DNA of 64,000 nt, taken from contig JACMNO010000073.1 of assembly GCA_014378485.1 (NCBI GenBank), positions 1 through 64,000 on the forward strand, in the 5' to 3' direction. Each line of letters opens with the position of its first letter. The first letter of the stretch is position 1. Below the pieces are notes generated by a model. That model was not told where the DNA came from and made no database searches. It worked only from the letters and a program-made list of their open reading frames with translations. The position numbers were made by a program, and so were the translations under genes. This document shows positions 2,944 to 46,332 of this stretch, piece after piece. Source of the DNA: Bacteroidia bacterium. GTDB taxonomy: Bacteria; Bacteroidota; Bacteroidia; B-17B0; Aurantibacillaceae.

Positions 2944-5900
2944 TTAAGCAATACCAACACCGTGGCAACTTTTATATTTTTTTCCGCTGCCGCATGGACA
3001 AGGATCATTTCTTCCTATTTTTTGTTCTACCCGAATAGGTTGCTGTTTTGGCTTTTGAACTTCCTGGTGTTCCTGCTGATCATTTTCACTTCTGCTTTCC
3101 ACCAATTTTTCTTTTGGACGCTGTTGAACCTGTTCCTGCGTAAACTGGGCTTTTTGTAATTTAGGTTTGTCTTTGCTATTTTCCTCGATTGGCAATCCAC
3201 CTTTCATTAAAAAAGAAATAATGTCCTTGCTCGTTTTAGAAATCATTTCCCTGAACAGATTGAATGATTCTAACTTATATACAACTAAAGGATCTTTTTG
3301 TTCAAGAGAAGCATTTTGAACGGATTGCTTTAGATCATCCATTTCACGTAAATGCTCTTTCCATGAATCATCGATCATGGCAAGTATCACTGTTTTTTCA
3401 AAAACAGAAACAAGTTCGCGTCCTTTTGTGTCATATGATTTTTTGAGATTAGCCATTACCTGGATTCCTCTAACACCATCAGTAAATGGAGTTACAATAT
3501 TTTCAAAATTATTATTTGGATTAGTATAAACATCTTTTACAACAGGGAAAGTCATCTCAGCAATTTCAGCTGATTTTGCCCTGTAATGATGTTCTCCTGC
3601 CTCAAATAATTTCTGGATGAGGTCATCCTCTTTTCCGGAAAAAAATTCTTTTTCAGTAAAAGGAGATTCAATGCCAAAGTTTTTAATGCATTCAAAAGTA
3701 AAGCCTTGGTAATCTTTTAATACATGGAACTCCGTAACAATGCTTTCTGATACTTCATAGATCATGTTTGCAATATCAATACTGATCCTGTCTCCGTTTA
3801 ATGCATTACGCCTGCGTTTATATACAACATCACGTTGCGCGTTCATCACATCATCATATTCGATCAAACGTTTACGGGTACCAAAATGATTTTCTTCTAC
3901 TTTCTTTTGCGCACGTTCAATGGATTTTGAAATCATTGGATGTTGGATGACTTCGCCTTCCTCAAGACCCATTCTGTCCATTAAACTGGCAATACGCTCA
4001 CTGCCGAATAAACGCATCAGGTTATCTTCCAATGAAACAAAAAACTGCGAACTTCCCGGATCTCCCTGACGGCCGGCGCGACCACGTAACTGCCTGTCAA
4101 CACGACGACTTTCATGACGCTCGGTACCTATGATTGCTAAACCACCTGCATCTTTCACACCTGCACCTAATTTAATATCGGTACCACGACCTGCCATGTT
4201 AGTTGCAATAGTAACGGTTCCTGTCTGCCCTGCTTCCGCAACAATGTCGGCTTCTCTTTGGTGTAACTTTGCATTTAATACATTATGCTTAATTCCTCTC
4301 AACTTAAGCATACGGCTCAATAATTCAGATATCTCTACACTGGTTGTACCAACTAACACCGGGCGACCTGCCGCAACTAACTTTGCAGTTTCTTCAATAA
4401 CGGCATTGTATTTTTCACGCTTGGTTTTGTAAACTAAATCTTGTTCATCTTTACGAGAAATGGCTCTGTTTGTTGGAATCACAACCACATCTAATTTATA
4501 AATATCCCAAAACTCATTTGCTTCTGTTTCAGCCGTTCCGGTCATACCAGCTAATTTGTTATACATTCGGAAATAATTCTGTAAGGTAACAGTTGCATAA
4601 GTTTGAGTAGCCGCTTCAATCTTTACATTTTCTTTCGCTTCAAGGGCCTGATGTAAACCATCGCTGTAACGTCGGCCTTCCATGATACGCCCTGTTTGCT
4701 CATCCACAATTTTAATCTGCCCTTCAGCAATCACATATTCCTGGTCAATTTCAAATAAAGAGTAAGCTTTTAATAATTGATTAACGGTGTGAATTCGTTC
4801 GCTTTTTACACTGAAATCACGCATCAAAGATTCCTTCAGTAATATTTTTTCTTTTGGATCAGCAAATGTTTTCTTTTCAAGATCAGCTATTTCTCCGCCA
4901 ACATTAGGGATGATAAAGAAATGTGGGTCATCGGTTGTGCTTGTGATCAGGTCAATTCCTTTTTCAGTCATGTCTACTGAATTATTTTTTTCATCAATCA
5001 CAAAAAACAGATCCACATCAATTTTATGCATTTCCTTTTGCTGGTCCTGCATATAATAATTTTCTGTTTTTTGCAGCAAGGCCTTTACTCCGGGTTCACT
5101 TAAATACTTAATTAATGCGCCATTTTTTGGTAAACCTCTGTAGGCTCTTAATAATGGAATGCCCGCTTCTTTTTCGTTTCCTTCAGCAAATAAACGTTTA
5201 GCATCCGTTAAACATAACTGAACAAATGATTTTTGTGCAGCCAGTAATTTTTCAACGCGAGGCTTGAATTCCATAAACTCATGCTTGTCTCCTGTTGGTG
5301 TTGGTCCTGAAATAATTAAAGGCGTTCTCGCATCATCAATTAACACTGAATCGACCTCATCCACAATCGCGAAATTATGCTTACGCTGGACAAGATCTGA
5401 TAATTCACGGGCCATATTGTCACGCAGGTAATCAAAACCAAATTCGTTATTGGTACCATAAGTAATATCTGCCATATAAGCAGCGCGACGTTCTTCCGTA
5501 TTCGGATCATGTTTATCAATGCAGTCTACACTTAATCCGTGAAATTGAAATAAAGGTGCATTCCATTCGCTATCACGTTTTGCAAGGTAATTGTTTACAG
5601 TTACTACATGAACCCCTCTTCCGGATAAAGCATTTAAAAAAACAGGCAGTGTAGAAACCAAAGTTTTTCCTTCACCTGTAGCCATTTCCGAAATTTTACC
5701 AGAATGTAATACTGCTCCACCAATCAATTGCACATCATAATGCACCATATTCCACAATACTTCAACACCTGCAGCTGTCCACTTATTTTTCCATGCAGCT
5801 TGCGATCCGCGAATTTCAATATTTTTATGATTTTTCGCGAGCTTTGCATCAAAATCATTAGCTGTTACAACGAGCTCTTCACTTTCTGAGAAACGGCGTG

Positions 5901-10348: not shown

Positions 10349-13300
10349 TTATTCAAGGATTAGTTTAAATAGTTTAGATCCATTATCCGTTGTAGCCTTC
10401 AGATAATAAATTCCTTTACTTAATTTGCTTATATCTACAGTAACATCTTTTGTAGTTTTAAAACTTTCAGAAAATACAGATTGACCTAAAGGATTAAAAA
10501 CAATAATGTCAATTTTATTAAGAATGTCATTACTCAATAAATTAAAAATACCATTTCCGGGATTTGGATAAATGATTAAGCCATTTGTTTCTGATACCTC
10601 CTCTAACTTTGTACTAAATGAAACGCATGCCACACTCATAGCGCTATTGGAGTTGGAATCTGTTATAGTTACAGTATAACATCCAGGAAGTAAACCGGAA
10701 ACGGATTGTGTGGTTGCACCACCAGGACTCCATGAATAAGTATATGGTCCGGTACCACAATTTGTGGTCACTTGAACAGCGCCATTTGCACAGCTTCCGC
10801 AACTGGCATTACTTGCCGTTGCAACAGCTGATAAGCCTGATGACATGGTGTAAGTTTGTGATGCCGTGCAACCTCCTTGAGGATTTGTTATAGTAATAGT
10901 ATATACTATGGCAGTTGTAGGAGTAATAGCAGGCACAACTTTAATAGCTGTATTATTACTGTTTTGGACGATTGCTCCATTGGATGAAACCGAAATTGTA
11001 TAGGAAGATGGAGATGTTGACCCACAATTTTCAAATATTATATTTGGCCTGTTCGGTGAAGAATTCGCTACGTTTGTAGTCATGCATGCTACAGTGACAT
11101 CATTATTAAAATATAAAACAGAGCCGAATGAAGTTACTGTATATGGAGATGAAGAGTTATTAGTATAATTTGTTGTCAGGTCACTACACACATCAATTAA
11201 AATATTTGAAACGCCATCCCATTCGTAAGCTGTTGGAAACTGATAAGTGTTCCACCCGGTATTGATATTAACAGAAGGAGAAGAATAAACCTGAGTTAAT
11301 CCTGAATTATCAAATGAGGCCCCAAATAAATCATTAACAGTTGTACATTTCATTTTAATAGTAAAGTTTGGATATACTGTTGTACCAGCAATAGAGCTAA
11401 TATTAAAAGAGATGCTGGATAGTTTTCCGGGTTGTACGCCTGAAGCCTGCAATTCGGAAGCCCTATACAATAGTTGATGCCTAGCATTTTTATACCAGTT
11501 ACTATAAATTGCAGGGTATGAGGTGTTAGAGTTTATAGCTGTCCCATTACCTATTTGGATTGCATTTGGAGTCGTGCAATTTCCTGATGAGGACAGGGCA
11601 CAAACGGAAGGTGTGACCGCACCAAAATTAAAATTAATTCTTGCGGTGTCAGATGGAGAACAAGAGCTGGTATTTGCTCCGGTCATTGTAAATGAAGTTT
11701 GTATTGCATTTATGATAAATATATTGTTATAAGTACAGTTACCATCATTAACTGTACTGGTATATGTTCCTGCAGATAAATTGATAACAGAATAAGTTGT
11801 AGAACTATTAGTAGCATTAGAAACTACGTTATTACTAATGTCCTTGATGGAATAGGAATAAGGTGAAGGATTAATAGGACTAAGATTTAAAACAACTGAA
11901 CCATTTGAATTCCCTGGACAAACGTTTGCAATATTATTTATGTAAATTGAGCCACCAGCAACTTGATTAATAATATACCTGATAGAATCTCTACAATTTC
12001 CAGCATTAGTATACACGACCGTATAATTACTACCATTTATTGGATTACTGATAGATAATGTATCGCTTGTGCCATTTGGAGCTGGAATTGGAGTTGTTCC
12101 CATATACCATTGGTAATTTGTTCCAATGTTAGTGCTGATAAACGTATTATTACCGCAATATGTTTTAGTTTGCTGGTAATAGGCGGGTGCTGAAACAGGA
12201 ACAGTAACTGTAGCAGAAGATTGACCACAAGTTCCTGAACTAATATTTACGCTGTAATTTCCGGGGCTTAAATTAACAGCTGTCGGGTTGTTACTAATTA
12301 CACTTCCTGTACTGATGCTTGTCCACGTGTAAGAAATGGCACCATTACCTCCATTAATATTCACTGTGGCAGAACCTAAGTTGCCACCTAAGCATGTGCC
12401 TGTTGCAGAAATGTTTGTGATAGTAATACTTGATGTTGCAACAGTTACTGTTTTTGTTTCAACGCACCCATTACTTCCGGTTAATTGAACGGAGTAGATG
12501 TTTCCAACTGTTGGATTTGAAACAGATAAAGTATTAGAAGTGGCTCCGGCAATTGGATTACTACTAGGGTTTAGCCATTGATAACCTGTATAACCCAAAG
12601 GTGCAATGAGCGAAGCAGTCGTTGATCCTGAACACATATTAGATGTAATGTAATCAGGTCCGCCACCACTACCTGTGGCTCCGCATTCCGCATCTACATA
12701 GGCATAACCCCAATGGCCTCCCTGAGAACATCCTGCAACCTCAAAGTTAACAGATACATTCGAACCCAATGGCAATGAAGATAAATCGATAGTATAGAGT
12801 CTCCATTTTCTGCACATGATATCATTAAAACCAAATGGGGAAGTGAAAATTGAATCTGATGCAAGAGGCGCGGTTACGTTAAAAACCGCCGAGGAATTAC
12901 AGCTTGTTAAAAGGGCGCCTGTACTTTCGTTTTTTACCTCAACTTTGAAATACGGAGATTCTTCTGCCGTATGTCCGCCATTATATAATACCAAAGCGAA
13001 GCTGTAGCTTAGTTTTTTATTGGTTGCAGAAGTAGTGGTAATATATTTTAATTTACAGCCTCTATAATTTGGATTTGCTCCATTCATTCTTACAGAAGCT
13101 CCATCTAAACTAAAAGGACTTACTACAGGTATTTGAGAAATAGTATTTGTCCCAACAACTTTACAGGCAATAGAATCATAACCAGTACAATTTGGATATA
13201 CAGGATTAGTTGCCGCAGTTGTCATTATTGTATGATAGTTTATTGTATTCACCAAACTAACATTATTACCTGCTGTATTCACTATGGTTGGTGATGTTTG

Positions 13301-14839: not shown

Positions 14840-16189
14840 ATGGCAAAGAAAGTAGTTTCAAAAAGTATCGAAAAAAAGATATTCGTTCTCGATACATCAG
14901 TGATCATTTATGACCATACAGCAATAAAAAATTTCAAAGAACATGATGTGGTAATTCCCATCACCGTTTTAGAAGAGCTAGATAATTTTAAAAAAGGAAA
15001 CGATACCAAAAACTTTGCCGCCAGGGAGTTTACGCGTTATGTTGATAATATGTCGGGCGATAATTCTTTACAGGAATGGACACCCATTAATGGAAAACAT
15101 CATGGCCATTTTAAAATAGAAATGCATAATTCTTCCAAACTTGATGCAGAGAAAATTTTCCAGGAAAAAAAAGGCGACCACCGTATTTTAAACGCGGCAT
15201 TATATACAGCAGAAACTAACCCTGATCGAAAGGTGGTATTGGTGACTAAAGACATTAATTTGCGTATTAAAGCAAAATCATTGAATCTGCACGCAGAAGA
15301 TTACACAACAGGTAAAATATTAACAGTTGATGAACTGTATACAGGAAATACCTTTATGGATAAGGTGAATCCCACAACCATTAATCAGATTTATGAAAAA
15401 GGATCTTGCCTTGCAAAGGACGTACTTAAAAAAGAGGTGCCTGAAGCAAACCACTATTATGTTTTAAAAAATGGAAATGCTTCTGTTTTGGCCCGCTATG
15501 AAGAGTCTTCCAAATCTTTAAAGCGTGTTACTAAAACGTCATCATATGGTATCATTCCAAAAAATGCGGAGCAATCTTTTGCACTGGATGCAATCATGAA
15601 TCCTGATATACGACTTGTAAGTGTTCAGGGAGTTGCAGGAACAGGAAAAACATTATTATCATTAGCAGGTGCCTTGGAACAGCGTCGTAATTATCATCAG
15701 ATCTATCTTGCGCGCCCCATTGTTCCATTAAGCAATAAGGATATTGGTTATTTACCCGGCGATGTGACCTCTAAGTTAAATCCTTACATGGAGCCATTAT
15801 GGGATAATTTAAAATATATAAAAAGCCAGTTTTCCGAAAAAGACAAAGAATATAAAGCAATCAATGAAATGATCGAGAACGAAAAAATAGTCATCTGTCC
15901 TTTGGCGTTTATTCGCGGACGAAGTTTAAGTAATATGTTTTTTATAGTAGATGAAGCCCAAAATTTAACTCCGCACGAAGTAAAAACTATTATTACTCGT
16001 GCCGGTGAGAACACCAAAATTATTTTCACAGGTGATATTTATCAAATTGATACTCCTTACCTGGATGCACAAAGTAACGGTTTAAGTTATTTGATTGACA
16101 AAGTAAAAGGTCAGCCTTTATATGCACACATCACTTTACAAAAAGGAGAGCGAAGCGAGCTAGCCAATTTGGCAAATGATTTGTTATAG
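14840..16189 (+). CDS. phoH: PIN-PhoH family ATPase
   Basis: A 449-residue fusion of an N-terminal PIN nuclease-like domain (~12-150) and a C-terminal PhoH P-loop ATPase (~240-449). The PIN part shows the acidic residues in FVLDTSVIIYD, VLEELDNFK and DHRILNAAL. The ATPase has Walker A GVAGTGKTLL, the segment ARPIVPLSNKDIGYLPGD, and Walker B FFIVDEAQNLTP followed by the sensor IIFTGD. This PIN-PhoH (PhoH2/YlaK-like) architecture is linked in other bacteria to RNA unwinding and cleavage, but the physiological role here is unproven. The older phosphate-starvation name is historical. The gene stands alone and ends at a strong bidirectional terminator. Confidence 0.95.
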   Translation: MAKKVVSKSIEKKIFVLDTSVIIYDHTAIKNFKEHDVVIPITVLEELDNFKKGNDTKNFAAREFTRYVDNMSGDNSLQEWTPINGKHHGHFKIEMHNSSKLDAEKIFQEKKGDHRILNAALYTAETNPDRKVVLVTKDINLRIKAKSLNLHAEDYTTGKILTVDELYTGNTFMDKVNPTTINQIYEKGSCLAKDVLKKEVPEANHYYVLKNGNASVLARYEESSKSLKRVTKTSSYGIIPKNAEQSFALDAIMNPDIRLVSVQGVAGTGKTLLSLAGALEQRRNYHQIYLARPIVPLSNKDIGYLPGDVTSKLNPYMEPLWDNLKYIKSQFSEKDKEYKAINEMIENEKIVICPLAFIRGRSLSNMFFIVDEAQNLTPHEVKTIITRAGENTKIIFTGDIYQIDTPYLDAQSNGLSYLIDKVKGQPLYAHITLQKGERSELANLANDLL

Positions 16190-40624: not shown

Positions 40625-41233
40625 GTGTCATTGAGAAAGTTAATCATATTCACATTTTGTATTTTTTTTGTAAGTTTTATTATTGCTCAAACTGATACGT
40701 CAAAATATAATCCTAAAAAAGAAATTGCGTACGACGGAAAACGTTATCGTGTTTACAATAACTGGCTTTCAGTTGGCGCAGGAGCAGGTTATAATACCAG
40801 ATGGCCAAAGGATGAAAAAAACCTTGGCGCTGATTTTACTTTTCATGTTAAGGAACATTATTTAAGGCTTGGCGGCTTTTTGAGTGGCGCTGATTATACA
40901 GCTGCCAATAATTACAGTTTTCATTTTTGCTATGTATTTCGAAAAGAAGGTGAAAAATATAATTTGTCTGCGGCAATAGGCCCGTCAACTTCCTATTTCA
41001 GAAGGCCTTTGAGTGATTCCTCCAGCTATAATTTAGCTACTGTTTATAATAAAGTCGGTGGTTTTGCAGCTATAGAAGCCGTTTATAAATTTAAATATGA
41101 TGTTGGTATTGGTGGCCAGATCTTTTGTGATTATAATCAGGTGCAGATGGTGTACGGCGTGAGATTAATCGTTTATTTTTCAGGCGCTTACCGTGGTATA
41201 AAATATGGTTATGTTAAGCCAAAAAAGAAATAA
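40625..41233 (+). CDS. Putative outer-membrane barrel protein
   Basis: A 202-residue exported protein with a signal peptide (LRKLIIFTFCIFFVSFIIAQ) starting at GTG 40625 (TTG 40631 is possible). The mature part has short amphipathic strands (WLSVGAGAGYNTRW, GADFTFHV, HYLRLGGFLSGADY, YDVGIGGQIFCDYN, MVYGVRLIVYFSG), suggesting a small outer-membrane barrel. It ends in a basic tail (GYVKPKKK). It overlaps the next gene by 29 bp in another frame, so translation may be coupled. No family is recognised. Confidence 0.65.
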   Translation: MSLRKLIIFTFCIFFVSFIIAQTDTSKYNPKKEIAYDGKRYRVYNNWLSVGAGAGYNTRWPKDEKNLGADFTFHVKEHYLRLGGFLSGADYTAANNYSFHFCYVFRKEGEKYNLSAAIGPSTSYFRRPLSDSSSYNLATVYNKVGGFAAIEAVYKFKYDVGIGGQIFCDYNQVQMVYGVRLIVYFSGAYRGIKYGYVKPKKK

Positions 41234-42296
41234 CCCGGCTGCTGATTTTATTATTGTAGGGCAAGGCCTTGCCGGGTCTGTACTTGCTTTATCTTTAATA
41301 AAAGAAGGTTACTCAGTATCAGTCATCAATCAACCACACTTATCATCAAGTTCCAGGATTGCAGCAGGAATATGGAACCCCATCGTTTTTAAACGATTAA
41401 CCAAAAGCTGGTTAGCGGATGATCTGATCCCTGAATTAATTTCTTTTTATGAGTACTGGGAAAAAGAATTTGGGATCTCGTTTATAAATCACCGCCATAT
41501 TATAAAACCATTCACAGAAGAACAGGAAAAAAATTTATGGCTCAAAAAGTCACATGACCCCGAATCGGAAAATGTTTTTTTAGATCCTGTTATTTACGAG
41601 GATTTACAGATAGATGAGCATTATACCGTAAAACAATACTCTAAAGTTTTACAGGCCGGGAACCTTGATGTTTCTCTTTTTTTAGATCGCACTAAAAACT
41701 ATTTCAAAGAAAATCAAAATTACCTGGAAGAAGAATTTGATTTCGATCATTTAAAAATTAACGAAAACGATATTATCTATAAAGAACTCACAGCTAAAAA
41801 CATAATCTTTTGTGAAGGCCACTTGGTTAGCAACAACCCTTATTTTAACTGGGTCCCCATGAAACCTGCCAAGGGTGAAACCATTACAATTCACAGTACG
41901 AAACTGAAACTTAAAGAGAATATCTTTAACAAAGGGTTTTTTATTCTGCCCCTTGGAAATGATTTTTTTAAAATCGGTGCTACTTATGAATGGAATGAAC
42001 TGAATGATGTTCCTACTGAAAAAGGGAAACTTGAACTGATCAAAAAATTGAACAGCATTATCACTTCGCCTTACAAAATCATTTCACATGAAGCAGGTGT
42101 CAGGCCGGCCGTAACAGATCGGAGGCCGGTTGTTGGTAAACATCCCGATATTAAAAACATGTATGTATTTAATGGCTTAGGTACAAAAGCAGTGATGCTG
42201 GCCCCTTATTTTGCGAAACAACTGGTAAATTCAATTAAATATAATTTGGCTATTGATGTGGAAGTTGACCCAACACGTTTTATTAAGAAAGTGTAA
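41205..42296 (+). CDS. FAD-dependent oxidoreductase (DAO superfamily)
   Basis: A 363-residue enzyme with the N-terminal FAD-binding dinucleotide motif in ADFIIVGQGLAGSVLALSLI. The DAO-type catalytic domain follows, and a C-terminal FAD contact lies in GVRPAVTDRRPVVGKHPDI and NGLGTKAVMLAPYFA. It is related to glycine/D-amino-acid oxidases, but the substrate is not predictable. The start overlaps the preceding barrel gene by 29 bp (ATG 41205; 41211 is also possible). Its last ~55 codons are duplicated downstream beyond a toxin-antitoxin-like pair whose toxin stop codon lies 1 nt from this gene's stop. Confidence 0.9.
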   Translation: MVMLSQKRNNPAADFIIVGQGLAGSVLALSLIKEGYSVSVINQPHLSSSSRIAAGIWNPIVFKRLTKSWLADDLIPELISFYEYWEKEFGISFINHRHIIKPFTEEQEKNLWLKKSHDPESENVFLDPVIYEDLQIDEHYTVKQYSKVLQAGNLDVSLFLDRTKNYFKENQNYLEEEFDFDHLKINENDIIYKELTAKNIIFCEGHLVSNNPYFNWVPMKPAKGETITIHSTKLKLKENIFNKGFFILPLGNDFFKIGATYEWNELNDVPTEKGKLELIKKLNSIITSPYKIISHEAGVRPAVTDRRPVVGKHPDIKNMYVFNGLGTKAVMLAPYFAKQLVNSIKYNLAIDVEVDPTRFIKKV

Positions 42297-42297
42297 T

Positions 42298-42618
42298 TTA
42301 ACCATTTAAAAATTGAGCATCAGAAACATGATTGTTTGTTATGTACTCAATATAATAAGTTGTATTTACTTTATCAAAAAACACATACCACATAGTACGG
42401 TTATTTAATTTTATGCTAATATAATGTGCGCCGTATTGTTTATGCTTTGGTTTTGATGTTTTGCAAAACTTTAAATTGGATATTGTAATTTCATTAAGTA
42501 TAAAATCTTTATATTCAATAGCATTTTCGAAATAAGAGAAATAATTATTATTATATAAAATTAAAACAATATCATTTAAATAATTGGCAACACGTTTATT
42601 AAAAACTATTTTTTCCAA
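42298..42618 (-). CDS. RelE/ParE-like toxin candidate
   Basis: A 106-residue basic protein. The segment NNRTMWYVFFDKVNTTYYIEY followed by ITNNHVSDAQFLNG has the beta-strand pattern of small RelE/ParE-type toxins found in Bacteroidota. I recognise no exact family. It starts inside the end of the upstream antitoxin-like gene (13-bp overlap, 42606-42618), the classic arrangement of a type II toxin-antitoxin operon. Its stop codon (42298-42300) is one base from the stop codon of the convergent FAD oxidoreductase. Composition is Asn/Tyr/Lys-rich and more AT-rich than the neighbours, suggesting acquisition. Confidence 0.6.
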   Translation of the reverse strand: MEKIVFNKRVANYLNDIVLILYNNNYFSYFENAIEYKDFILNEITISNLKFCKTSKPKHKQYGAHYISIKLNNRTMWYVFFDKVNTTYYIEYITNNHVSDAQFLNG

Positions 42619-42821
42619 TTTAAACCAGTGATAAATTTATCAGTTTTCTTTTTCACTTCTTCTTTCGAGATATAATCACCGGCACTTTTTGAAGTAATGC
42701 CTTTTTTGCTTAAAAAATTAATTAAATCATCATCATCTGCATATTTTTTTAAATCAATATGCAATTTTGTTAAAACACCTTTGGTATTTTTTTCAACTTG
42801 TATACCTGCAATACGTGCCAT
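42606..42821 (-). CDS. Antitoxin-like small protein
   Basis: A 71-residue protein beginning MARIAGIQVEKNTKGVLT, followed by KLHIDLKKYADDDDLINFL and a charged helix ISKEEVKKKTDKFI. Short proteins with this ARIAGIxxEKxxKG...ARxxLKKY layout precede small toxin genes in other Bacteroidota. ATG 42821 was chosen; the frame extends further upstream without similarity. It is the first gene of the pair and overlaps the toxin start by 13 bp. A well-spaced promoter lies directly upstream. The antitoxin role is inferred from context. Confidence 0.6.
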   Translation of the reverse strand: MARIAGIQVEKNTKGVLTKLHIDLKKYADDDDLINFLSKKGITSKSAGDYISKEEVKKKTDKFITGLNWKK

Positions 42822-42838
42822 AATAAATGTTTTATATA

Positions 42839-42869
42839 CAAATTTAAGAAATAAGTTTAAATTTTGCAA
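42839..42869 (-). promoter_or_regulatory. Promoter of the toxin-antitoxin-like pair
   Basis: On the minus strand TTG (plus-strand CAA 42867-42869), 20 bp, then TAAATTTG (plus-strand 42839-42846), an exact TAnnTTTG match. It ends 17 bp before the antitoxin ATG and begins ~20 bp from the edge of the duplicated gene end, so the cassette carries its own promoter. Confidence 0.65.
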
Positions 42870-42888
42870 TGAAGTTTGTTCTGGGAAA

Positions 42889-43062
42889 AATAGAATGCCT
42901 TTATTTGGAAACCACCTCGATATTAAAAACATGTGTATATTTAATGGTTTTGGAACAAAAGCAGTGATGTTGGCCCCTTATTTTGCGAAACAATTGGTTT
43001 TTTCTATAAAGTATGCATTACCTATTGATAGTGAAGTGAGTCCGGAGCGTTTTAAAAAATAA
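42889..43062 (+). pseudogene. Duplicated 3' fragment of the FAD oxidoreductase
   Basis: This fragment encodes RMPLFGNHLDIKNM, then CIFNGFGTKAVMLAPYFAKQ, then VFSIKYALPIDSEVSPERF, and stops. It matches the last ~55 residues of the FAD oxidoreductase (RRPVVGKHPDIKNM, YVFNGLGTKAVMLAPYFAKQ). By eye the DNA is about 84% identical over the first ~110 aligned bases from GATATTAAAAACATG, and both copies are followed by a TAA(A)TTTAA sequence. The rest of the gene is absent on the left, where the toxin-antitoxin-like promoter begins. Confidence 0.85.
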
Positions 43063-43071
43063 ATTTAATTG

Positions 43072-43143
43072 GTACGCATTAATACAGACCAATTAGTAGC
43101 TGATGGAAAAGTAGTAGATAGTAAAAAAATGGTAAGAGAATAG
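43072..43143 (+). other. Possible short coding remnant
   Basis: An open stretch reads VRINTDQLVADGKVVDSKKM then VRE and stop, with protein-like composition but no start codon and stops immediately upstream. It may be the tail of a lost gene. The rest of the gene-free stretch 43063-43380 holds only AT-rich DNA and the quasi-palindrome at 43228-43311. Confidence 0.3.
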
Positions 43144-43227: not shown

Positions 43228-43319
43228 GAACGCAGAAGACACGGATAGACAGATTTAAAGCAATGAACTAAAAATCATCTTAAATCATAAGAATCCGAGT
43301 TATCTGCGTTCTTTTTTTG
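43228..43319. repeat. Quasi-palindrome with GAACGCAGA arms and T tail
   Basis: Left arm 43228-43246 and right arm 43293-43311 pair at 16 of 19 positions (outer word GAACGCAGA). A run of seven T residues follows, so it could act as a terminator. The arms closely match those of the element at 34430-34514. Confidence 0.75.
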
Positions 43320-43380: not shown

Positions 43381-46332
43381 ATGAAACCTCTTTGTTTTAA
43401 ACTTATTTTATTTACCCTATTTTTAATAATGGGTCAATGGTTGCTTGCGCAACAAAAAGACAGCCTTCCCGTAAAACCTATTGAAATTAAAGAAGATGTT
43501 AACGTTGCAAAAAAAAGAAAATTCATTTATTTCGTCTCCAACCGTTTAAGTGATGACGATAAATATGATGTTTTTAAAGTTACTCCAAGCTCACAGTCGC
43601 CGGCATTAATTGTTATTCGAGGGCATATGGATGTTATTGGAAATCCCAACGAAAAAAAAGCAAAAATCAATGTATATAATGTTTCTAATAATGCTTTAGT
43701 AGGCACTTATAATTCCAATTCATATACAGGAAATTATCTTTTGATCCTGGCACCCAATGTTAAATATCTTTTTAAAGTTGAAGTATCTGGTTACGGAACA
43801 ACTGAAGAAATAGTTGAGGTTCCTTTAAAAATAGATTATGAGATTTGCCAGCAGGATATAAAGATCAAACTAAATGAAAAGCAAAAACCTGTTTTAATGA
43901 TCAACAGCTTTTTTGCCGATGAAAATGAAAAGGTTTTTTACTTAAGGTCTACCATCGATACAACAAAACTAAATTCTGAAAATACTGCATTGAATGATGG
44001 CGTTGATAAAGTAGATAAGAATGGAAAAGGTTATTCGAACATTGATGAGTTGGTAAAAAAACAATTAGAAGAAGAAAAGAAAAAACCCGAAGAGGCGCTC
44101 ACCGCTTTTAAAAATAACGAATTTGAAAAGGCATTGGGTATGTATGCCGGATTATTGAAAAATGATCTTGCTGACCCTTTGATGAATTATTACTATGGTA
44201 TTTGTCTGGTAAAATTAGATAAGAACAAGGCAAAAGCCATTAACTCTCTTTTAATAGCATCCGCTGTAAAAGAAACGCCGGCAGATGTATTTTATTATTT
44301 AGGAAGAGCCTATCATTTATCCTATTTATTTAATGACGCTATAAAAGCTTATGAACAATTTAAGGGCAGAGTGAAACCTTATGATTTTGAAGGATTAAAC
44401 GGTCCTTTACTCATTAAAAATTGCATGAACGGAAATAATGTAATGAATGATCCGATAAACATGGAAGTTGTAAAACGTACACCTACTCAATTGGAAAACA
44501 TTCTGGCCAACTATAATCCCGATCTGATCAATGAAAAAGTAAGATTCAAAACAGATTTTTTCAACTCTACAATTGATAAGAAAAAACAAACTAAATTTTT
44601 GATGAGTAATATTAATCCAAGGGAGTATTATCATATAAGTTACGGTGAAAAAGAGCAAACCCATACAGATCTTTATAAAAACACACTATTGCCAAATGGC
44701 ATCCTTGGCCCAAGTCAAACGCTTGGCCCAGAGATCAACACTCCTTACGATGAGAATTATCCTTACCTCACAACAGATGGCAATACGTTATATTTTTCTT
44801 CGAAAGGACATAACAGCATAGGTGGTTACGATATTTTCAAATGTACGCGTAAGGATAGTTTATCCGCATGGTCAAGGCCGCAAAACATGGGCTATCCTAT
44901 CAATTCTACCTATGATGATATTTTGTTTGTGCCCGATGAATCCAATCAAACGGCATCCTATTGTACTAATCGAAAAAACAGTAGTTACGAGTATACACAA
45001 ATTAAATTGCCTCAACATCCTGTGTCAAATTCTATCATCAAAGGTTGCTTCAACACATTAGATAGTATTCCAAAAAAGGAAGCTTACATCACGGTTTACA
45101 ATTCGGGTACCGGTGAAATAGCAGGTGTATATAAAACAAATCCCTTAACAGGCCAGTATTTAATGATATTATTATCCGGAACAAAATATGATATGTCTGT
45201 TGAATCAGAAGGTTATTCTGAGCAAACAAGTTCTTTTGAGCTTCCTGATAAAAAAGGAGAGTATGAATTAAAACAAACTATCAAACTTCAAACTACTTCT
45301 GGCCAAAAAACCATTAAGGTCAATAATTATTTTACTGAAGCGGAAGCGGCAAAAATTTCATTTGATATTATCCCGCCGAAAAAGGTCAATTCACTTGCTG
45401 GCCAGGAAATAAAAAAACCGCTGAAACTAAAAAAACCTAAACGAACTGTAGAAGAAGCTGAAAAAGATAAAGAGGATCTTAAACTGGCTGAAACTCTTTA
45501 TGATCAAACCGTTTACCAGGAGGCAGCATTGATTTACCAGACTCTTGACCATTATATTGACCTGAGCCCCATGGACGCATACCGTTATGGAATCTGTTTA
45601 TTTCATACAAAAAAAGATAAAACAAATTGTATCAATGCTCTTGAGGCTGCCTCAGCTTTAAAACCTGTTCCTATTGAGATTTACTATTACCTTGCCAAAT
45701 CCAACCACATGAGTTACCGGTTTAGCACTGCCATTAACTATTATAAAAAATACATGTCGCTGTGCAAGCCCGAAGATATTAAAAGCCTGAAGATAGAACA
45801 GGAAATCATTTACTGTAATAACGGGATCAAACTGGTTAACAATCCTGTAGTTTTAGAAGTGTATGGCAAAAAACACGTAGACCAAAATGCTATTCAAAAT
45901 TCTTTGATGCAAATTGAATCCGGCGGAAAGGTACTTGTAATAACAGATGATATGAGATCTTCCATTGATAAAAAGAAAGACTTTAAATCCTTGCTATATT
46001 TAACACCTGATAAGAACACAGTGCTTTATTCGAGTTATGGTGAAGATGAGAAAAATGGAAAAGATATTTACCAGCTAAAAAAACTGGCAAACGGCAAATG
46101 GAGTCCTCTCCCACAAAATATAACTGCTGTTAACAGTCCTTTAGATGAAGAGTATCCTTCTTTGTCAAAAGACGGAAAAATCCTGTATTTCTCCTCAAAA
46201 GGATTTGAGAATATGGGAGAGTACGACATTTTTAAAAGTGAATGGAACGAAAGTACTCAATCCTGGTTGGCACCTGTAAATTTAGGATCACCCGTTAATT
46301 CCCCTTTCGATGACATTTATTTCCTTGAGTAG
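43381..46332 (+). CDS. Internally duplicated TPR and PD40-propeller exported protein
   Basis: A 983-residue exported protein (signal peptide ending WLLAQQ). It consists of two homologous ~430-residue halves. Each half has a carboxypeptidase-regulatory-like beta-sandwich (NSYTGNYLLILAPNVKYLFK; TNPLTGQYLMILLSGTKYDM), TPR-like helices (YYYGICLVKLDKNKAKAI; YRYGICLFHTKKDKTNCI), and PD40/TolB-like blades (YPYLTTDGNTLYFSSKG; YPSLSKDGKILYFSSKG). The same domains occur in the T9SS-associated PorE/SprE-type proteins, but no OmpA domain is present here. Residues ~30-70 look like the end of another propeller unit, giving a permuted arrangement. Periplasmic location is inferred. No partner genes are adjacent. 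Confidence 0.85.
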   Translation: MKPLCFKLILFTLFLIMGQWLLAQQKDSLPVKPIEIKEDVNVAKKRKFIYFVSNRLSDDDKYDVFKVTPSSQSPALIVIRGHMDVIGNPNEKKAKINVYNVSNNALVGTYNSNSYTGNYLLILAPNVKYLFKVEVSGYGTTEEIVEVPLKIDYEICQQDIKIKLNEKQKPVLMINSFFADENEKVFYLRSTIDTTKLNSENTALNDGVDKVDKNGKGYSNIDELVKKQLEEEKKKPEEALTAFKNNEFEKALGMYAGLLKNDLADPLMNYYYGICLVKLDKNKAKAINSLLIASAVKETPADVFYYLGRAYHLSYLFNDAIKAYEQFKGRVKPYDFEGLNGPLLIKNCMNGNNVMNDPINMEVVKRTPTQLENILANYNPDLINEKVRFKTDFFNSTIDKKKQTKFLMSNINPREYYHISYGEKEQTHTDLYKNTLLPNGILGPSQTLGPEINTPYDENYPYLTTDGNTLYFSSKGHNSIGGYDIFKCTRKDSLSAWSRPQNMGYPINSTYDDILFVPDESNQTASYCTNRKNSSYEYTQIKLPQHPVSNSIIKGCFNTLDSIPKKEAYITVYNSGTGEIAGVYKTNPLTGQYLMILLSGTKYDMSVESEGYSEQTSSFELPDKKGEYELKQTIKLQTTSGQKTIKVNNYFTEAEAAKISFDIIPPKKVNSLAGQEIKKPLKLKKPKRTVEEAEKDKEDLKLAETLYDQTVYQEAALIYQTLDHYIDLSPMDAYRYGICLFHTKKDKTNCINALEAASALKPVPIEIYYYLAKSNHMSYRFSTAINYYKKYMSLCKPEDIKSLKIEQEIIYCNNGIKLVNNPVVLEVYGKKHVDQNAIQNSLMQIESGGKVLVITDDMRSSIDKKKDFKSLLYLTPDKNTVLYSSYGEDEKNGKDIYQLKKLANGKWSPLPQNITAVNSPLDEEYPSLSKDGKILYFSSKGFENMGEYDIFKSEWNESTQSWLAPVNLGSPVNSPFDDIYFLE

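Follow-up and report, generated by a model that had tools for sequence, protein, structure and literature searches.

A toxin-antitoxin-like cassette lies between an intact oxidoreductase gene and a second, partial copy of its 3′ end in a Bacteroidia genome

The window analysed here is a 64,000-nucleotide stretch of DNA from a Bacteroidia bacterium. At the end of an intact oxidoreductase gene within it lies a compact minus-strand pair of genes resembling a type II toxin-antitoxin system, and beyond this pair the last part of the oxidoreductase gene occurs again. We consider it fairly probable that the cassette entered at the oxidoreductase end by recombination with an incoming homologous gene end, the resident tail being displaced in the process. 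The features of the locus are as follows:

41205..42296, plus strand: intact FAD-dependent oxidoreductase of the DAO family (Pfam PF01266, E=4.5e-24), the gene whose 3′ end is present twice in the window
42118..42298, plus strand: tail copy 1, belonging to the intact oxidoreductase gene (from the repeat alignment)
42298..42618, minus strand: toxin candidate, 106 aa, TTG start, predicted ParE/RelE superfamily fold (open reading frame, predicted structure, relatives)
42606..42821, minus strand: antitoxin candidate, 71 aa (MARIAG...LNWKK), overlapping the toxin gene by 13 nt
42839..42846, minus strand: promoter -7 box TAAATTTG (Bacteroidetes TAnnTTTG), 25 nt upstream of the antitoxin ATG
42890..43070, plus strand: tail copy 2, a displaced gene tail lacking its 5′ part and probably decaying (from the repeat alignment and changes by codon position)
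43093..43143, plus strand: second orphan gene tail, its last codons encoding LVADGKVVDSKKMVRE before the stop (peptide matches to the ends of a large-protein family)
43381..46332, plus strand: TPR/PD40 protein, the conserved downstream neighbour, directly behind the oxidoreductase in genomes with an empty site

A reading of this DNA from sequence only had noticed that the oxidoreductase 3′ end recurs downstream and had proposed that the two copies be aligned. Indeed, positions 42118-42298 recur at 42890-43070 as an ungapped direct repeat of 181 nt with about 75% identity, the runner-up 181-nt match to the tail copy anywhere in the window reaching 43%. Over the best 110 nt (42133-42242 on the copy 1 side) identity is 84.5%, in line with the earlier estimate of about 84% over some 110 bp. 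Tail copy 2 encodes the final 57-58 residues of the oxidoreductase with 71-72% amino acid identity and closes with a TAA ending at 43062. Besides this repeat, the window has only one family of direct repeats of at least 40 nt spaced within 5 kb, a tandem array at 86-1292. There, a large reading frame on the minus strand contains six diverged direct repeats with a period of 216 nt.

The polarised changes are distributed over the three codon positions as 4/5/4 in tail copy 2 vs. 3/0/7 in the intact gene, with 21 further sites ambiguous; the latter pattern is as expected for a gene under selection. The even spread in the copy, set against the third-position bias in the gene, suggests that tail copy 2 is probably a fairly old fragment undergoing decay. 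This agrees, as does the 75% identity between the copies, with the earlier view that the event is not recent. Tail copy 2 is about 74% identical to its own gene at the nucleotide level and at most 70% identical to every relative; a phylogeny of the tails gave no supported placement for it.

Between the copies, the sequence-only reading had placed a compact minus-strand pair with its own promoter, and the two genes, their 13-nt overlap and the -7 box all bear this out. As had been pointed out, a single nucleotide separates the toxin stop (42298-42300) from that of the oxidoreductase (42294-42296). As in type II systems, two small overlapping genes run in one direction with the antitoxin ahead of the toxin, and have a promoter of their own. 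The gene order and 13-nt overlap are repeated in L002, L003, L005 and other related cassettes, and a TAnnTTTG-type box lies no more than 60 nt upstream in 9 of 14 related cassettes, vs. 3.9% of random windows. The toxin gene is decayed in some relatives (L109-L112). The conserved order, overlap and decay are what would be expected of a type II system, from which toxicity is presumed. No mobility functions (transposase, integrase, terminal repeats) were seen at the cassette, nor were there convincing inverted repeats at its ends. A profile search gave no credible family match for the window antitoxin; a match to IF2_N (E=0.0013) fell below the cut-off and was taken as chance.

The toxin candidate has no Pfam, NCBIfam or PADLOC assignment. 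Its match to a PHROG family of unknown function was weak (E=0.0023), and the best result of a PDB sequence search (E 0.05) was taken as chance. The structures of the window toxin and of its relative L040 were modelled from a 3-sequence alignment, with only the best of five models confident in each case (pLDDT 73 and 87, respectively). The window model matched PfiT with Z 10.2 over 96 residues (rmsd 2.6) and the L040 model did so with Z 10.3 over 91 residues (rmsd 2.5). Both also matched ParE toxins, mostly at Z 8-10, and nearly all of the remaining listed structural matches of the two models were to RelE/YoeB/HigB/YafQ. It should be noted that the Foldseek E-values were weak (0.001-0.01), so that what carries the assignment is how consistent the match list is. 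The predicted fold places the toxin candidate in the ParE/RelE superfamily; since no curated family matches, it is filed there by fold only and under no named family. The structure prediction that had been proposed for the toxin thus returned a ParE/RelE fold in both models, and this predicted fold, together with the operon layout, supports the earlier description of a RelE/ParE-like toxin with its antitoxin as a type II-like pair.

The toxin family is patchily distributed, occurring in 5/87 genomes of the taxonomic family, 9/395 genomes sampled from the class and 13/395 sampled from the phylum (2-6% of those sampled). Most of the loci are unrelated. The family was found in none of the 19 other same-genus genomes. 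One scan of viral contigs yielded no relative, and plasmids yielded one match, in Parabacteroides (31%). The antitoxins encoded upstream are of several types (MARxAGIQ..., AQAQ..., DUF2080-like and Phd/YefM-like); for the partner of L056, a related toxin, the match to PF02604 Phd/YefM has an E-value of 1.9e-4, below the Pfam cut-off. In genus g67 of family f54, cassettes L102-L105, L108, L109, L111 and L112 occupy, in convergent orientation, the end of a fabD-like gene, and where shown a galE-like or EamA-like gene lies upstream of them. Broken toxin genes occur in several of these cassettes, and the site is stable and shared.

Exactly one match to the oxidoreductase was found in each of 54 of the 60 relatives searched, and, set beside these 54, only the window genome has an extra oxidoreductase tail. 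The comparison with genomes lacking the insertion, also proposed earlier, was provided by five same-genus genomes (G003, G011, G017, G008 and G019), in which the site is empty: each has a single tail and no cassette, with 70-115 bp between the oxidoreductase and the downstream gene, and the neighbours are conserved.

Flanking repeats above a cross-locus null were present at 2 of 17 cassettes, the window and L007; no tail repeat surrounded the other 15 tested, nor any of 11 further loci. At L007 (G029, JAHBTI01), an intact dciA gene stands on one side of the cassette and, on the other, 46 nt of the dciA tail occur again (91% identical); the cassette is in the opposite orientation relative to the gene from that in the window. 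A scan for spaced direct repeats, which covered 615 kb of stretches from G000 and G029, yielded one more gene-tail case, L152. At this locus (G029, contig C44), positions 12488-12691 are repeated at 15205-15408 (204 nt, 94% identity); the repeated sequence is the tail of a methyladenine glycosylase gene and brackets a 2.5-kb insert with two thioredoxin-like genes and a propeller gene. This insert contains no toxin-antitoxin pair, which indicates that tail stranding is not special to such pairs. In all three cases (window, L007 and L152), the repeat ends at the gene stop codon or no more than about 10 nt from it.

Three further candidates were set aside. A flank match at L047 (score 22.5, reached by 0.7% of the null) was not significant among 17 tests, and a 33-nt repeat at L008 (76%) was not above the null. 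A 50-nt repeat at L003 (92%; 2049-2098 and 3002-3051) surrounds not the cassette but a kinase-like ORF next to it, where it is possibly another tail-type scar. At L139 (G029), 84-nt direct repeats (2908-2990 and 3908-3991; 88%), mostly non-coding, flank a Bro-N gene beside an ftsA-like gene.

The differences between the paired tails bear on how they arose. At L007 they are synonymous in 4/4 cases, plus a TAA vs. TAG stop (P about 0.017), and at L152 in 9/12 (P=0.0014), in post hoc tests of a model with equal mutation rates in which the copies are identical at the start and the stranded one decays neutrally. The tails of these two loci seem to resemble two functional lineages. Given this synonymous bias, both tails were apparently functional while they diverged, which favours a homologous tail brought in by a donor. 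In the window pair, the substitution pattern would fit a simple duplication of the target equally well, its copies being too diverged to decide. It is conceivable, if rather doubtful, that some form of recombination copied about 180 bp of the target, giving copies that were identical at insertion and diverged later. Such an event would produce the same anatomy as published restriction-modification units, and would account for a window copy that is nearest to its own gene (74% vs. at most 70%) and whose changes are unconstrained. However, the differences at L007 and L152 are too synonymous for neutral decay after copying, the repeats end very close to stop codons, and the L152 insert has no selfish genes to explain its mobility. 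The sequence-only reading had envisaged an insertion at a gene end that left the host gene intact and duplicated its tail; the intact gene, the tail copy and the empty sites speak for the insertion, while duplication of the host's own tail fits L007 and L152 less well than a donor tail does.

That reading had offered, as its other possibility, a complete second oxidoreductase in tandem, whether a paralogue or an acquired copy, into which the cassette inserted with loss of the 5′ part. Tail copy 2 does retain its reading frame and stop, but none of the searched relatives has more than one matching oxidoreductase, which leaves the tandem paralogue unsupported, and the downstream gene directly follows a single oxidoreductase in the five same-genus genomes. 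We regard this origin as unlikely. We think it very unlikely indeed that the pair is not a toxin-antitoxin system at all, consisting instead of two small proteins of another function. The lack of a curated assignment for the toxin would agree with this, as would its one weak PHROG match, but the ParE/RelE fold in two models, the overlapping operon in the family members examined and the promoter box all argue against it, as do the patchy distribution, the decay of the toxin in some relatives and the Phd/YefM-like partner in some.

For the entry by homologous recombination that we favour, we propose the following course. A type II operon from a patchily distributed Bacteroidetes family would have arrived between the oxidoreductase and the neighbour conserved downstream of it, on incoming DNA in which the cassette adjoined a related version of this oxidoreductase's 3′ end. 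On one side the exchange would be anchored by homologous pairing inside the gene, and on the other an illegitimate join would close it. The gene would thereby keep a full 3′ end, now partly donor-derived, while the resident tail would be pushed beyond the cassette, where, once stranded, it would decay. The repeats would end near gene stops because homology between species ends where the intergenic DNA differs. The cassette presumably persists as an addiction unit, in which the antitoxin would block the toxin and repress the operon, and loss of the unit would free the toxin. The target of the toxin may be gyrase, if it acts like ParE, or mRNA, if it acts like RelE.

Just behind the stranded oxidoreductase tail lies the second orphan gene end (43093-43143), which was absent from the sequence-only reading. 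In G004, G005 and G013, ORFs of about 1000 aa terminate in the LVADGKVVDSKKMVRE peptide, and a similar orphan copy of this tail is present in the same-genus genome G005 (L157). Judged by the look of their sequence, the roughly 1000-aa proteins may be T9SS-like cargo with a C-terminal sorting-type domain. A second orphan gene end behind the stranded tail suggests that the junction has received DNA more than once. Further downstream, the sequence at 43271-43318 is a short dispersed repeat, to which three further contigs of this genome have matches.

In a genome of another genus (G029, contig C1, L002, around 97982-98308), a cassette also stands beside this oxidoreductase gene, with side and orientation both as in the window; no second oxidoreductase tail is present there. 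L002 belongs to a different sub-lineage, with an AQAQ antitoxin and a toxin that groups with those of L005 and L006 at 96/98. A rough post hoc estimate puts the chance of this coincidence at 0.004-0.015 (ten cassettes in the family, roughly 3000 genes). It may reflect a preferred target, or such a neighbour may be the donor configuration. We think it quite improbable that the toxin-antitoxin family is self-spreading, with a preference for gene 3′ ends, rebuilding the gene end and stranding the old tail; if this were so, the independent arrival of L002 at the same oxidoreductase end would reflect target choice.

Type II toxin-antitoxin pairs are horizontally mobile, and to our knowledge it is seldom possible to see how a pair by itself, with no transposase, comes to settle in a chromosome. 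Here, what serves as the scar of the insertion is a gene tail. Scars of this kind accompany cassettes of either orientation as well as cargo of an ordinary sort, so a search for stranded gene tails can serve as a general way to recognise one-sided recombination. With its ParE-like predicted fold, the toxin family is a candidate for functional test. It resembles members of the ParE/RelE superfamily (PfiT 9w3a, ParE2 5cw7, PrpT 7ycs and ParE 6xrw) in the predicted beta-alpha-alpha-beta-beta-beta fold over nearly the whole chain and in the small antitoxin encoded upstream in an overlapping operon. It differs from them in its low sequence identity (7-16% for the window toxin, which matches no curated family) and in a conserved C-terminal NNH motif.

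Insertion with long target duplication was reportedly described by Nobusato in 2000, as cited in PMC3874152 and PMC1643837, for restriction-modification genes. The window shares with such insertions a selfish two-gene unit, long imperfect direct repeats of the target and an empty site; indeed, it has long flanking direct repeats and a single-copy empty site, the anatomy by which long target duplications are recognised. It differs in that the unit is a toxin-antitoxin pair and the repeats are gene tails, and the cases related to it diverge with a synonymous bias, which argues for a donor tail. In PMC3874152 and PMC1643837, the target duplications of restriction-modification insertions are on the scale of 100 bp and vary in length. 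Homology-facilitated illegitimate recombination is proposed for the orphan T6SS immunity genes of V. cholerae arrays in PMC5361080, which also cites Rhs tails as similar orphan gene ends. The likeness to the V. cholerae arrays lies in the one-sided homology, with a new 3′ part and cargo coming in and the resident 3′ part displaced downstream; in the window, by contrast, the gene is that of an ordinary enzyme and ends up restored, and what has been displaced is a fragment with no function. The event and its components are of known kinds; what is new is a toxin family without a curated entry and the clear scar that accompanies it.
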